This document shows, one piece after another, positions 3,882-56,565 of a stretch of 64,000 nucleotides of DNA. The position numbers and the translations under genes are program-made. The number at the start of each line of letters is the position of its first letter. The stretch's first letter is position 1. The stretch comes from Bradyrhizobium sp. CCGB12 (GTDB lineage: Bacteria; Pseudomonadota; Alphaproteobacteria; Rhizobiales; Xanthobacteraceae), in assembly GCF_024199845.1 (NCBI RefSeq), contig NZ_JANADO010000001.1, positions 8,358,001-8,422,000 of the forward strand, in the 5' to 3' direction. The notes under the pieces are model-generated. The model was not told where the DNA came from, made no database searches, and saw only the letters and a program-made list of their open reading frames with translations.

Positions 3882-4727
3882 ATGTCGACATCCGCAGTGC
3901 TCAAGCCCGCCGCATCCCAGCCCCAGCCTGACCTCGCCGCCGTCAAGCAGCGCCAGCACGGCGCCTGGTCGTCGGGCGACTATGCCGTGGTCGGGACCAC
4001 CTTGCAGATCGTCGGCGAGCATCTCTGTGAGGCGCTTGACTTACGCGCCGGCAGCAAGGTGCTGGACGTCGCCGCCGGCAACGGCAATGCGACGCTGGCC
4101 GCGGCACGGCGCTGGTGTGACGTCACGTCGACCGATTATGTGCCGGCGCTGCTCAAGCGTGGTCGCGAGCGCGCAGCGGCCGAACATCTCATGATCGAAT
4201 TCCGCGAGGCGGATGCCGAAGCGCTGCCGTTCCCCGATGCCAGTTACGATGTGGTGCTCTCGACCTTCGGCGTGATGTTCACGCCGGATCAGGACAAGGC
4301 GGCCTCCGAGCTCGCGCGGGTCTGCAGGTCCGGCGGCAAGATCGGCCTCGCCAACTGGACGCCGCAAGGTTTCATCGGTCAGCTGTTCAAGACCATCGGC
4401 AAGCATATCGCCCCGCCAGCCGGCGTAAAGTCGCCGGCATTGTGGGGGACGGCGGCGCGACTTGACGAGATGTTCGCAAGCCAGGCCTCCGAGATCGCCG
4501 CCGAGCCGCGCATGTTCGTGTTCCGCTATCGTTCGCCGGACCACTGGCTCGAGATCTTCAAGACCTTCTACGGGCCCACGCTGAAGGCGTTTGCCGCGCT
4601 CGACGAGAGCGGCCAGAGCGCGCTGAAGCGCGATCTCCAGGCGCTGCTCGGCGAGTTCAACCGTGCCGATGACGGTACGGTCGTCGTGCACAGCGAATAT
4701 CTGGAAGCCGTCATCACCAAGCGCTGA
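3882..4727 (+). CDS. Class I SAM-dependent methyltransferase (UbiE/Methyltransf_11 type)
   Basis: 281 aa; start ATG preceded by AGGAG at a normal distance. Motif I VLDVAAGNGNATLAA (residues ~60-74) is the SAM-binding glycine loop; a DAEALPFPDASYDVVLS segment gives the post-I acidic and motif II region, and a later SGGKIGLANW matches motif III. The fold is that of UbiE-like C- or O-methyltransferases, but nothing shows the substrate. It stands alone: the upstream gene is divergent and the downstream gene convergent. Confidence 0.85.
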   Translation: MSTSAVLKPAASQPQPDLAAVKQRQHGAWSSGDYAVVGTTLQIVGEHLCEALDLRAGSKVLDVAAGNGNATLAAARRWCDVTSTDYVPALLKRGRERAAAEHLMIEFREADAEALPFPDASYDVVLSTFGVMFTPDQDKAASELARVCRSGGKIGLANWTPQGFIGQLFKTIGKHIAPPAGVKSPALWGTAARLDEMFASQASEIAAEPRMFVFRYRSPDHWLEIFKTFYGPTLKAFAALDESGQSALKRDLQALLGEFNRADDGTVVVHSEYLEAVITKR

Positions 4728-20617: not shown

Positions 20618-20766
20618 TTCCCCTCTCCCCGCCTGCGGGGAGAGGGTAGGGTGAGGGGGAGTCTCTCCGGGGACGGTGACAGTCGGACTCGCGGAGAGTC
20701 CCCCTCACCCGAATTTTACGCGAAAGGCGTAAAATCCGACCTCTCCCCGCAGGCGGGGCGAGGTGA
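20618..20766. repeat. Composite palindromic element, family A (full copy, reverse orientation)
   Basis: Three hairpins in series: CTCTCCCCGC/GCGGGGAGAG at one end, a central GGTGAGGGGGA/TCCCCCTCACC pairing around the conserved GGGGACGGTGACAGT, and a variable hairpin ATTTTACGC (20713-20721)/GCGTAAAAT (20727-20735) next to a second CTCTCCCCGC hairpin. It fills most of the space between the DUF2314 gene and hisS. Confidence 0.85.
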
Positions 20767-34429: not shown

Positions 34430-34591
34430 ACCCTCCCCTGGAGGGGGAGGGTCGATCGCGCGTAGCGCGAGCGGGGTGGGGTGACGGTCCCTCCGCGTCG
34501 AACAGTGCTCGTGGGGAGAGATCACCCCACCCCGTCCCACATTTCGCTGCGCTCAATGTGAGCCGACCCTCCCCCTCCAGGGGAGGGTGGG
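34430..34591. repeat. Composite palindromic element, variant of family A
   Basis: Same architecture as family A but different sequence: a CCCTCCCC hairpin, a variable hairpin (GCGCG..CGCGAGCG), GGGGTGGGGTGA paired with TCACCCCACCCC across a centre, a second variable hairpin (CACATTTCGC..TGCGCTCAATGTG-like) and a closing ACCCTCCCCCT/AGGGGAGGGT hairpin. It occupies half of the 330 bases between ubiK and rplY; the other half holds the rplY leader with no feature I can name. Confidence 0.75.
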
Positions 34592-39516: not shown

Positions 39517-39651
39517 GCCTCGCCCCGCTTGCGGGGAGAGGCCGACGCGCGAAGCGCGGCGGGTGAGGGGGACTCTCCGCGAGTCTCTCTGTCACCGTTT
39601 TCGGGGAAACTCCCCCTCACCCCGACCCTCTCCCCGCAAGCGGGGAGAGGG
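39517..39651. repeat. Composite palindromic element, family A (full copy)
   Basis: CCTCGCCCCGC..GCGGGGAGAGG, then a variable hairpin CGCGC-GAA-GCGCG (39546-39558), GGGTGAGGGGGA, the conserved core CTCTCCGCGAGTCTCTCTGT, TCCCCCTCACC and a closing CCCTCTCCCCGC/GCGGGGAGAGGG hairpin. The flanks of this gap (39426-39516 and 39652-39725) hold nothing I can name. Confidence 0.85.
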
Positions 39652-39725
39652 AGAAAACATTGTCAGAATCAAAACCGCCGCGTCCCTTGCGGAACGCGGC
39701 GGCCGGTGATGCTTGACGCCAATGC

Positions 39726-43370: not shown

Positions 43371-43504
43371 CCCTCGCCCCGCTTGCGGGGAGAGGGTGGG
43401 GTGAGGGGGAGCCTCCCCGGGGACGGTGACAGTTGCCCTCGCGGAGACTCCCCCTCACCCGATCGCTCCGCGATCGACCTCTCCCCGCAGGGGGCGAGGT
43501 GAAG
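43371..43504. repeat. Composite palindromic element, family A (full copy, reverse orientation)
   Basis: CCTCGCCCCGC..GCGGGGAGAGG, the GGGGACGGTGACAGT core, TCCCCCTCACC, variable hairpin CGATCGC-TCC-GCGATCG (43460-43476), closing CCTCTCCCCGC..GGGGGCGAGG. A fragment of family C (CGTCATTCCGGGTCGCGCG) precedes it at 43325. Confidence 0.85.
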
Positions 43505-48774: not shown

Positions 48775-48914
48775 GCCTCTCCCCGCCTGCGGGGAGAGGC
48801 CGGAATTTGCGATAGCAAATTCCGGGTGAGGGGGACTCTCCGCGAGTCTCACTCTCGCCGTCCCCGCGGTGGCTCCCCCTCACCCCACCCTCTCCCCGCA
48901 AGCGGGGCGAGGGA
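48775..48914. repeat. Composite palindromic element, family A (full copy)
   Basis: CCTCTCCCCGC/GCGGGGAGAGG, variable hairpin CCGGAATTTGC (48800-48810)/GCAAATTCCGG (48815-48825), GGTGAGGGGGA, CTCTCCGCGAGTC core, TCCCCCTCACC, closing CCCTCTCCCCGC/GCGGGGCGAGGG. It fills most of the divergent region between the LysR and TauE genes, leaving about 40 bases before TauE and about 120 before the LysR start for promoters. Confidence 0.85.
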
Positions 48915-54534: not shown

Positions 54535-55754
54535 TGATGATCGACTGCGTGGAGAACCGCCTCCTCACCTCGCGCCGCGGCCTCCTGCTCGGCGGCGCCT
54601 GTTTCGCGGCCTGGGCTTACTTGCCGAAATTCGCCCGCGCGGCCGACGGGCGCGATCCCAGGTTGATCGTGGTAATCCTGCGCGGCGCGCTCGACGGGCT
54701 TTCGACGGTGGCCCCGATCGGCGATCCCGACTACGCAGGCCTGCACGGTTCGATCGCACTCACGGCGGATGGCGCGCATCCCGCGATCAAGCTCGATTCC
54801 TTCTTCGCGCTGCATCCGGCCATGCCGGAATTCTCGCGCATGTACCGCGACAGGCATGCTGCGGTGATCCATGCGGTGGCGACGCCCTATCGCGACCGCT
54901 CGCATTTCGACGGCCAGGATGTGCTCGAAAGCGGCTATGCCGGTCCGGGCCGTGTGCAATCCGGCTGGCTCAACCGCGCGCTCGAGGCGCTGCCGCGCGG
55001 CGAGAGGGTCTCCTCGGGGCTTGCGGTCGGGCCGACCACGCCGCTGGTGCTGCGCGGCAATGCGCCCACCGTCGGCTGGGCGCCGGTCGCGCTGCCGCAG
55101 GCCGACGACGACACCGCAATGCGCCTCGTCGAGCTCTACCGCCATCGCGATCCCGCGCTGGCGACGGCGTTGTCGCAAGGCCTTCAACTCGACAAGGCCG
55201 CTGGTGGCGATGACATGAAGCCGAAGGGCGGCAATGCAGCCGCGCAGATGCGGCAGGTGGCGCGCGGCGCGGCAAAGCTGATGGCGGCCGACGATGGCCC
55301 GCGCATCGCTGCGCTCGCCTTCGACGGCTGGGACACGCACGCCAACGAAGGCGGCCCTGTCGGCCGTCTCGCCTTCCTGCTCGGCGGTCTCGACGGCGCG
55401 CTTGCCGAATTCGAAAGCGGCTTGGGCGATCGCTGGCGCGACACCGCCGTCGTGGTTGCCACCGAGTTCGGCCGCACCGCGCGCATCAACGGCACCGACG
55501 GCACCGACCACGGCACCGGAACGATCGCGCTGCTCGCCGGCGGTGCCGTGAAGGGCGGCCGCGTCATCTCCGACTGGCCCGGCCTCAAGCTCGCCAACCT
55601 CCATGAAGGCCGCGATCTCAAGCCGACTACGGATCTACGTTCGGTGATTAAAGGCGTGCTGCAGGGGCAGTTTGGCCTGTCCGATCGCGTGCTGGCGGAG
55701 ACCGTGTTTCCCGACAGCGCGGGGGCGCGGCCGATGAGGGGATTGGTGGTCTGA
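54531..55754 (+). CDS. DUF1501 family Tat-exported protein
   Basis: 407 aa from the first of three consecutive in-frame ATGs (54531, 54534, 54537); the third is best spaced from GGAG. A Tat-like signal SRRGLLLGGACFAAW leads an alkaline-phosphatase/sulfatase-like domain: VVILRGALDGLSTVAP, HPAMPEFSRMYRD, RDRSHFDGQDVLESG, FDGWDTHANEGG and VVATEFGRTARIN. Partner of the DUF1800 protein. The periplasmic role is unknown. A split palindromic element follows directly. Confidence 0.9.
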   Translation: MMMIDCVENRLLTSRRGLLLGGACFAAWAYLPKFARAADGRDPRLIVVILRGALDGLSTVAPIGDPDYAGLHGSIALTADGAHPAIKLDSFFALHPAMPEFSRMYRDRHAAVIHAVATPYRDRSHFDGQDVLESGYAGPGRVQSGWLNRALEALPRGERVSSGLAVGPTTPLVLRGNAPTVGWAPVALPQADDDTAMRLVELYRHRDPALATALSQGLQLDKAAGGDDMKPKGGNAAAQMRQVARGAAKLMAADDGPRIAALAFDGWDTHANEGGPVGRLAFLLGGLDGALAEFESGLGDRWRDTAVVVATEFGRTARINGTDGTDHGTGTIALLAGGAVKGGRVISDWPGLKLANLHEGRDLKPTTDLRSVIKGVLQGQFGLSDRVLAETVFPDSAGARPMRGLVV

Positions 55755-55760
55755 CTTAAA

Positions 55761-55818
55761 CCTCTCCCCGCTCTTTGCGGGGAGAGGTCGGATCGCGTAG
55801 CGATCCGGGTGAGGGGCA
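55761..55818. repeat. Left half of a family A palindromic element
   Basis: CCTCTCCCCGC..GCGGGGAGAGG, then hairpin CGGATCGC-GTA-GCGATCCG (55789-55807) and GGGTGAGGGGC. The remainder of the element is missing here and found at 56133-56188, on the far side of the broken DUF559 gene. Confidence 0.8.
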
Positions 55819-56131
55819 AGGCAATGCGTGGCCACAACGGAAAATCTATCCGACTCGCACGACGGCTCCGCGTTGATCAAACTGATGCGGAGACGGTCCT
55901 CTGGAATCGCATTCGCAATCGGAGGGTCGATGGACACAAGTTCGTCAGGCAAGAGCCAATCATCGGCTACACCTGCGACTTCGAAAGTCGACGGCGGGCA
56001 GCACAACGAATCTGCAGCAGATGCGATCCGTGACGAGCGCTTGAGAGAGAAGGGGTACAAAGTGCTCCGTATCTGGAACAACGATGTCCTTGGCAACATT
56101 GAGGGTGTTCTGACTATAATTTCAAGCCGAA
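55809..56131 (+). pseudogene. Broken DUF559 (Vsr/PD-(D/E)XK-like) gene
   Basis: Frame 1 opens with a GTG inside the left repeat half (VRGKAMRGHNGK), continues LRVDQTDAETVLWNRIRNRR and FVRQEPIIGYTCDF, then breaks at 55983-55986. Frame 2 resumes with VDGGQHNESAADAIRDERL and KVLRIWNNDVLGNIEGVL. In intact DUF559 proteins about ten residues, including the catalytic-site Glu, separate CDF from VDGGQH; here only four bases do, so some 26 bases were lost, shifting the frame. Without them the nuclease cannot be functional. Frame 2 has no stop before the monooxygenase gene. Confidence 0.85.
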
Positions 56132-56132
56132 C

Positions 56133-56188
56133 TCGCGGAGGCAGCCCCTCACCCCACCCTCTCCCCGTAAGAACGGGGCGAGGGAGTG
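56133..56188. repeat. Right half of a family A palindromic element
   Basis: CTCGCGGAG, GCCCCTCACCCCACCC and hairpin CTCTCCCCG-TAAGAA-CGGGGCGAG. This is the 3' half of the element whose 5' half is at 55761-55818. It is followed by about 50 bases before the monooxygenase gene. Confidence 0.75.
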
Positions 56189-56241
56189 AGAGAGGGGTGC
56201 CTCTCTTACGATCGTTCCACCTTTGCAGGAGAACCACCCGC

Positions 56242-56565
56242 ATGTACATCGCCATGAACCGCTTCCGCGTCGCCAAGGGCTCCGAGGCCGCCTTCGAGCA
56301 GGTCTGGCTCACGCGCGACACCCATCTGGACAAGGTGCCGGGCTTCGTCGAATTCCACCTGCTGCGCGGCCCCGAACTCGAGGACCACACGCTTTATGCC
56401 TCGCACACCGTGTGGGCGAACCACGCCGCGTTCGAGGCCTGGACCAAGTCGGAAGCGTTCCGCGCCGCGCATCACCGGGCCGGCGACAACAAGCCGCTCT
56501 ATCTCGGCCATCCCCAGTTCGAAGGTTTTGAGGTGATGCAGACGGTCGGACGCGGCGCCAAGTAG
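56242..56565 (+). CDS. Antibiotic-biosynthesis-monooxygenase fold protein, IsdG-like heme-degrading type
   Basis: 107 aa from ATG at 56242, preceded by CAGGAG. Ferredoxin-like ABM fold. Sequence MYIAMNRFRVAKGSEAAFEQVW, VPGFVEFHLLRGP and W-x3-AAFEAWTKSEAFRAAHH keep the Asn, Trp and His that line heme in IsdG/IsdI and the Bradyrhizobium HmuQ/HmuD enzymes. No heme-uptake genes are nearby. Reading frame is open backwards into the broken DUF559 gene, so the start must be set at the ribosome site. Confidence 0.85.
   Translation: MYIAMNRFRVAKGSEAAFEQVWLTRDTHLDKVPGFVEFHLLRGPELEDHTLYASHTVWANHAAFEAWTKSEAFRAAHHRAGDNKPLYLGHPQFEGFEVMQTVGRGAK

Follow-up and report, generated by a model that had tools for sequence, protein, structure and literature searches.

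A decayed DUF559 gene between inverted triplex-type repeats in Bradyrhizobium: the remnant of a probable small mobile element

Why does a broken nuclease gene lie between the two inverted halves of a palindromic repeat, and do the gene and the repeat belong together? The locus that raises this question occupies positions 55760-56184 of a 64,000-nt stretch of Bradyrhizobium sp. CCGB12 (contig NZ_JANADO010000001.1; the whole stretch is referred to as the window). A left half, composed of hairpin I, hairpin II and the block GGGTGAGGGG, and an inverted right half, composed of the block CCCCTCACCC and hairpin III, enclose 328 nt that hold the remnant of a gene of the family DUF559 (PF04480). A sequence-only reading of the window had described a decayed DUF559 gene between the halves of a palindromic element, with its GTG start within the repeat, and both observations are borne out: pieces of PF04480 are found in two frames with inverted halves on both sides, and the GTG at 55809 falls inside GGGTGAGGGG (55807-55816). 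The 315 bases given there as the distance between the halves are corrected to the 328 nt that separate the ten-base motifs. The evidence presented below indicates that the gene and its ends form a unit, and that the locus is probably what remains of a small autonomous element, the nuclease of which would act on its own ends and would move gene-less copies in trans. The parts of the locus are as follows (ORF, open reading frame).

55760..55788, + strand: hairpin I, the left end, with the pyrimidine arm, 5-nt loop and purine arm of a triplex-type motif (12-nt arms, 100% complementary)
55764-55818, + strand: type L motif, a motif finder match in the left half
55789..55807, + strand: hairpin II, a palindrome of variable sequence that separates purine arm and third strand
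55807..55816, + strand: GGGTGAGGGG, the left third-strand block, including the GTG start at 55809
55809-56033, + strand: ORF from the GTG (ORF list)
55809..56144, + strand: DUF559 (PF04480) remnant, frameshifted, with ~26 nt lost inside and another 1-nt length difference near the end
56145..56154, + strand: CCCCTCACCC, the right third-strand block, an inverted copy of the left block
56143-56180, + strand: type R motif, a motif finder match in the right half
56157..56184, + strand: hairpin III, the right end (sequence; motif finder)
56185..56209, + strand: right tail, ending in TTAC (by-eye comparison)

The motif finder reveals in the window element the build of an intrastrand triplex, in which a pyrimidine arm, a loop, a purine arm, a second loop and a mirror purine third strand follow one another. 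The second loop is 2 nt long in the right half, and a hairpin takes its place in the left half. With up to one mismatch, GGGTGAGGGG occurs 17 times in the window, compared with a mean of 4.9 and a largest value of 11 in 100 shuffles, and Rfam gives no match at the gathering score in 55600-56300. The right tail may also be part of the element, as the right hairpin at site 48775, which is unrelated, has a tail resembling it. The two pieces of PF04480 cover positions 5-52 in the frame of the GTG at 55809 (E 3.8e-13) and positions 59-104 in another frame (E 2.6e-10), and both exceed the curated cut-off of 20.6 bits (49.7 and 40.6 bits). The two length differences, of ~26 nt mid-gene and of 1 nt, emerge from an alignment with the unbroken gene that a relative (G027) carries at this site, and the window locus is a dead copy.

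The same arrangement recurs around DUF559 genes elsewhere. In its own genome, 6 PF04480 matches fall at 5 loci, and the three standalone DUF559 genes among them (L001, L002 and the window copy) all lie between inverted halves; the other two loci, L003 with a DUF559 domain in an ORF of 403 aa and L006 with a short vsr-like match, lack this arrangement. DUF559 is present in 59 of 60 genomes of the genus. The loci for comparison were chosen before their flanks were looked at, with weak DUF559 matches left out: 62 standalone genus loci (26 with full flanks, 5 of 31 at contig ends having been dropped, plus 36 in listing order, for which most rows on short contigs were passed over), a first phylum set of 29 loci (30 less 1 at a contig end) and a second phylum set of 40 loci, the next in listing order, with same-genus rows and four others passed over. 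A motif of pyrimidine-purine-purine (Y-R-R) build, with a second loop of up to 40 nt, is found within 300 nt of the gene at 61 of the 62 genus loci and at 28/29 and 39/40 phylum loci, compared with 0/62, 3/29 and 3/40 in control windows shifted 600-950 nt away and 1712 of 20000 random window positions (8.6%; 14 motifs in the window), neither of these controls being restricted to intergenic spacers. The motif is found at 0 of 5 long-ORF DUF559 controls. When the second loop is limited to 8 nt, a motif is retained at 42/62, 23/29 and 26/40 loci. The enrichment of DUF559 genes beside such halves in relatives, which the sequence-only reading had proposed as a check, is therefore observed.

The motifs are also oriented. 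The nearest upstream motif faces inward at 58/62 genus loci and at 17/29 and 31/40 phylum loci, the nearest downstream motif does so at 53/62, 20/29 and 28/40, and the full L..gene..R arrangement by nearest motif is present at 52/62, 11/29 and 25/40; around random window positions, an L..R arrangement occurs 20 times in 20000. These counts indicate that a nearby motif is near-universal in the samples, and that flanking on both sides is typical of the genus and less consistent outside it. For an inverted-flank score, the 200 nt upstream of each gene were aligned with the reverse-complemented 200 nt downstream; among 1000 random window positions this score reaches 28 at the 99% point and 31 at most. 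It exceeds 28 at 58 and 31 at 54 of the 62 genus loci, exceeds 31 at 30 of the 40 loci of the second phylum set and stays at or below 20 at the five long-ORF controls. The ends vary between DUF559 subfamilies (by eye), and within 21 genomes that each have at least two loci, the two halves of one gene resemble each other more closely than, on average, they resemble the halves of the other loci in that genome (44 of 47 loci). Two loci from the same order as the window genome, L100 (inverted score 197) and L306, carry long near-identical terminal inverted repeats; L306 is the single locus of the 40 without a triplex-type motif.

DUF559 genes are under purifying selection, with a median dN/dS of 0.05-0.08 (112 of 125 pairs used, saturated or near-identical pairs being left out). 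In a structure comparison the predicted fold matches 3hrl, I-Bth0305I and Vsr, and among solved structures with a known function the nearest is that of the homing endonuclease I-Bth0305I, in its catalytic domain (3r3p). The model thus assigns the protein to the PD-(D/E)XK/Vsr-like (Vsr/EDxHD-fold) single-domain nucleases; it is a single domain here, and its setting is intergenic at the sites read. Three tested DUF559 proteins of the genus fall below the cut-off of NF007294/PRK09767, the YcjD model. A defence gene was considered and rejected, as PADLOC gives weak matches only for 4 proteins, and cholera-type toxin chains in the structure comparison are chance matches (E 0.2 and worse). A stop codon inside the right motif is not a rule: 6 of 58 genes stop inside, 33 read past the motif and 19 end before it.

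The same ends are also found joined to each other. The 9.4-Mb genome contains 55 cores of the form GGGTGAGGGG-N20-50-CCCCTCACCC and none of the reversed control pattern. In the window, the motif finder and the repeat search give the following gene-less copies and single motifs, the last two of which are absent from the earlier list.

39517..39652, + strand: gene-less element of another subfamily, ends joined by 42 nt
48775..48911, + strand: gene-less element (repeat search; motif finder)
20618..20763, - strand: gene-less element in reverse orientation (repeat search; motif finder)
43371..43500, - strand: gene-less element in reverse orientation (repeat search; motif finder)
34432..34589, no strand assigned: further L..R motif pair (motif finder)
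4594-4657: single left-type motif (motif finder)

The four complete copies have 42 nt between the ten-base motifs and cores of 62 nt; that their halves are joined had been recognised, and the spacing of about 45 bases is now refined. The single "family A" to which all copies had been assigned resolves into several related subfamilies, and linkers and ends set the four complete copies apart from the window DUF559 copy (by eye). Hairpin II is hypervariable and mostly palindromic: the own-genome set has 17 distinct sequences in 18 copies, with a stem of at least 6 bp in 15 of the 18 and a mean of 7.9 bp, compared with 1.1 in arm-swapped controls. The corresponding counts are 10/12 and 7/8 at two sites and 8/12 at the window site, with a control value of 3.8 for the last, and the class of hairpin II at one site differs between species. 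Templated hairpin repair or selection may account for this variability.

Gene-less copies can be compared with the gene at the window site, where seven were available (two each in L122, L128 and L137, and one in L148). The intact G027 element has an interior of 353 nt, and all seven align to its two ends. For six of them, the 5' part maps to the first 43-54 nt and the 3' part to the last 22-37 nt, each scoring above every one of 300 shuffles; in the remaining copy this holds for the 5' part, and the 3' part equals the best shuffle. The retained ends are coding sequence of the DUF559 gene, as expected of internal deletions. Judged from these alignments, deletion derivatives are present in one subfamily, that of the window gene itself. 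The retention of gene ends is not a general rule. In the subfamily to which the complete window copies belong, the summed score of the linker lies above 95% of shuffles in 6 of 8 cases; only one 5' part maps to the 5' end of the gene, and the 3' match lies within the inverted-repeat part, and in another subfamily the count is 0 of 2. The proposal that the palindromes are non-autonomous relics of a DUF559-based element is consequently supported for the subfamily of the window gene (7/7 keep both gene ends) and not for the complete copies in the window, the linkers of which lack a convincing match to gene ends.

Comparisons of the same site in relatives, which are snapshots between species and not observed events, reveal several states. 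Among the best 30 of 93 matching genomes at the window site, 6 have the gene, 1 has a gene-less element alone, 22 have no element and 1 is unreadable, so that occupied and empty alleles, sought by the sequence-only reading, exist at one site. Among the 6 gene carriers, the gene is broken in the window and in one relative, and three have gene-less elements on both sides. In these three (L122, L128 and L137), a gene-less element, the DUF559 gene and a second gene-less element form a tandem array. At site 48775 (30 genomes, by eye), the element is full or nearly full in 16, reduced in 10 and without a hairpin in 4, and in most of the reduced copies the two ends have merged into a single hairpin, the product expected of a deletion between repeated arms. 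At site 39517 (30 genomes, by eye), 3 have a full element at nearly the same spot, with differing hairpin II and in one case a different linker, and one further genome has a fused-hairpin remnant. The spacer upstream of pheT (pheS-pheT) holds a DUF559 gene at 21 of the 62 genus loci, from two subfamilies (15 and 6), and is a hot spot of DUF559 elements in the genus (L001, L022-L024, L027, L043, L061 and others). Unrelated repeats, of the GTCATTCCGGG...CCCGGAATGAC and GTGTCCCGGAC...GGGGCAC types, occupy the same spacers in many relatives (L121-L150 at the window site, L275-L304 at site 39517; by eye), as if some spacers took many repeat families.

The association extends well beyond the genus. 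Among 80 named loci, 75 have usable flanks and 74 a motif, compared with 3 in shifted windows; this set is biased, its query having been built from 8 genes of which several were already seen flanked, and indicates breadth only. It includes Deltaproteobacteria, a Chloroflexi SAR202 metagenome-assembled genome (MAG) and a Gastranaerophilales MAG, and some AT-rich hosts retain GC-rich ends (by eye). Of nine loci in a plasmid collection, five pass the inverted-flank test, namely those of S. meliloti (score 156), Deinococcus proteolyticus (97), Sinorhizobium (66), Sphingomonas (52) and Azospirillum lipoferum (51), and four score 20 or less (E. coli, Synechocystis and two A. brasilense). At the Synechocystis plasmid locus (L156), next to a gene annotated pglX, and in the Gastranaerophilales MAG (L210), the motifs face outward, and the DUF559 gene apparently lies within a longer reading frame. 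Gene and repeat also co-occur at the level of genomes. Among 299 phylum genomes, a strong DUF559 match (E <1e-20) is present in 77 and the strict triplex pattern in 75, with both in 54, the repeat only in 21, the gene only in 23 and neither in 201 (p 5e-24); counted by family (n=70), the corresponding numbers are 22, 7, 4 and 37 (p 2e-8). Relatedness and GC content are partly controlled in these statistics, through the family count and the reversed pattern.

These results are best read as a system resembling those of REPINs, the paired form of repetitive extragenic palindromic (REP) sequences, and of miniature inverted-repeat transposable elements (MITEs), run by a Vsr/EDxHD-fold nuclease. The element would consist of two inverted ends, each a hairpin with a purine third-strand block, around one DUF559 gene. 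The nuclease would recognise its own ends, folded as a hairpin or triplex on exposed single strands, and would cut there, which would allow copies of the element to arise at further intergenic sites. It would also move in trans those gene-less elements that share its ends, as REP-associated tyrosine transposases (RAYTs) are proposed to do for REPINs, and elements would be lost, probably often, by deletion between direct-repeated arms. The earlier proposal that gene and repeat are kept as a unit, comparable to REP sequences and RAYTs, is supported as to the unit, by flank enrichment and site states, and the likeness to RAYTs is functional only.

Several observations weigh against this reading. 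The L..gene..R arrangement by nearest motif is missing at 10/62 genus loci and at 18/29 and 15/40 phylum loci, and the inverted-flank score exceeds 28 at just 13 of the 29 loci of the first phylum set. Twelve of 49 genomes with at least five strict motifs are without a strong DUF559 match; G198, G257 and G091 hold 146, 73 and 43 motifs with no DUF559 among the matches listed. In G219, which has 52 triplex-pattern matches, the DUF559 match is weak only. Such motif-rich genomes may have lost the gene, may be incomplete or may use another nuclease. No insertion is seen between near-identical strains, the window-site relatives sharing ~91% or less of the flank, and two comparisons of Sinorhizobium plasmids yield no within-species empty site among the 30 rows listed for each because the flanks are not shared. 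No clear target duplication is visible in the flanks of 19 copies and at two sites (by eye), where the spacers are too diverged, and in two other subfamilies the linkers of the gene-less copies (8 and 2 tested) do not retain gene ends beyond the inverted-repeat part. In E. coli, ycjD has the motif on one side only, downstream of the gene (by eye).

Alternatively, the palindromes may be independent, and a DUF559 gene may enter the middle of gene-less copies by cutting and break repair in the manner of a free-standing homing endonuclease. The closeness of the fold to the I-Bth0305I catalytic domain, the excess of gene-less cores over genes (55 versus 3 standalone DUF559 loci in the own genome) and the linkers of two subfamilies, which lack clear gene ends, are consistent with such an invasion. 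We nevertheless consider it unlikely: every gene has its own matching ends, one genome can hold several DUF559 subfamilies whose ends differ, and gene-less copies at the window site hold stretches of the coding ends. Moreover, the absence of any element at the window site in 22 of the 30 genomes read means that most species seen offer no resident palindrome there. Somewhat more doubtful still is a host-maintenance nuclease that processes triplexes or hairpins in replication or repair, with the repeats as binding or autoregulatory sites or merely co-selected, and with no transposition. Its Vsr-like fold, the strong purifying selection on the gene, the reported instability of triplex-motif loci (available text of PMC4666352) and the link of VsrA, a DUF559 protein of C. 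crescentus, to the DNA damage response (available text of PMC12907096) all point in that direction, but several subfamilies per genome, alternatives at one site, deletion derivatives and dead copies are the habits of selfish elements. Terminator-like palindromes are common between genes (14 motifs in 64 kb), and the gene might merely sit in repeat-rich spacers; rates near 100%, compared with 8.6% at random positions and 0-10% in shifted windows, together with the orientation bias, the matched ends and the recurrence of the pattern in other phyla, make such a coincidence extremely improbable, and it was rejected on the random-position and shifted-window controls.

The preferred reading, that of a DUF559 element acting on its own ends, can be compared with known systems. 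RAYTs are HUH tyrosine nucleases, and REPINs are thought to be moved in trans by them; DUF559, by contrast, has a PD-(D/E)XK/Vsr-type fold, and its ends are triplex-type motifs. MITEs are short elements that lack a gene and have the ends of an autonomous one, a likeness to the gene-less copies described here, with apparent internal-deletion copies in one subfamily, whereas no DDE or HUH transposase is involved and a target duplication is not demonstrated. Abundant palindromic intergenic repeats, inverted pairs and a nuclease gene flanked by the same repeats are shared with the REP/bacterial interspersed mosaic element (BIME) and REPIN-RAYT systems (available text of PMC3733652), and a nuclease gene between cognate inverted repeats that also exist as gene-less pairs is what is found here. 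With the EDxHD homing endonuclease I-Bth0305I, DUF559 shares the fold of the catalytic domain, but it lacks the extended DNA-binding region of the phage EDxHD enzymes (available text of PMC3943268) and does not lie in an intron.

A further likeness is to the boxC/PIT/TM repeats of E. coli K-12, described as a G/C-rich class II triplex motif with 23 copies, five inverted pairs that are always of types A and B, and hypervariable loci (Holder et al. 2015; available text of PMC4666352). The motif search in that text allows a second loop of 1-6 nt; the text reports no transposase or integrase remnants near the repeats, and endonuclease, ycjD and DUF559 go without mention in its main text as available. 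Both kinds of repeat pair a pyrimidine arm with a purine arm in a hairpin, behind which comes a third strand of purines, and both are multicopy, intergenic, strain-variable and present as inverted pairs of two types; here, however, the ends enclose a nuclease gene, and the left ends of the window subfamily have an additional hairpin in the second loop. E. coli YcjD belongs to the same DUF559 family as the window gene, and its C-terminus extends into a motif of the boxC type that is complete in L244 and degenerate in L240 (by eye). Behind ycjD, a second degenerate motif copy repeats the 3' end of the gene, and a further motif follows (by eye). A sapF-ycjD query is covered to at least 80% in 3361 of 5426 E. 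coli genomes. In three of the others (L241-L243), an efflux operon, eefRABCD (available text of PMC12817139), occupies this place; the polymorphism was therefore rejected as a clean empty site and is no proof of insertion. The E. coli repeats may be offspring of DUF559 elements. Among the literature matches listed, which leave subscription literature mostly uncovered, none links DUF559 or YcjD to palindromic or triplex repeats.

We regard it as an even question whether the boxC/PIT/TM repeats are the ends and gene-less offspring of an unrecognised class of bacterial mobile elements, with DUF559, a Vsr/EDxHD-fold nuclease that would recognise DNA ends folded as hairpin or triplex, as their sole protein, and that extends over Proteobacteria, including E. 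coli with YcjD, Deinococcota, Chloroflexi and Cyanobacteria. If so, this repeat family, an orphan since the 1990s the spread of which is left unexplained in the available text of PMC4666352, would have a likely source, and DUF559, a very widespread nuclease family of "unknown function", would have a likely role. A second, unrelated enzyme type would then be added to the REP/RAYT way of life. The old boxC question is testable in laboratory E. coli K-12, since ycjD and boxC are both present there.
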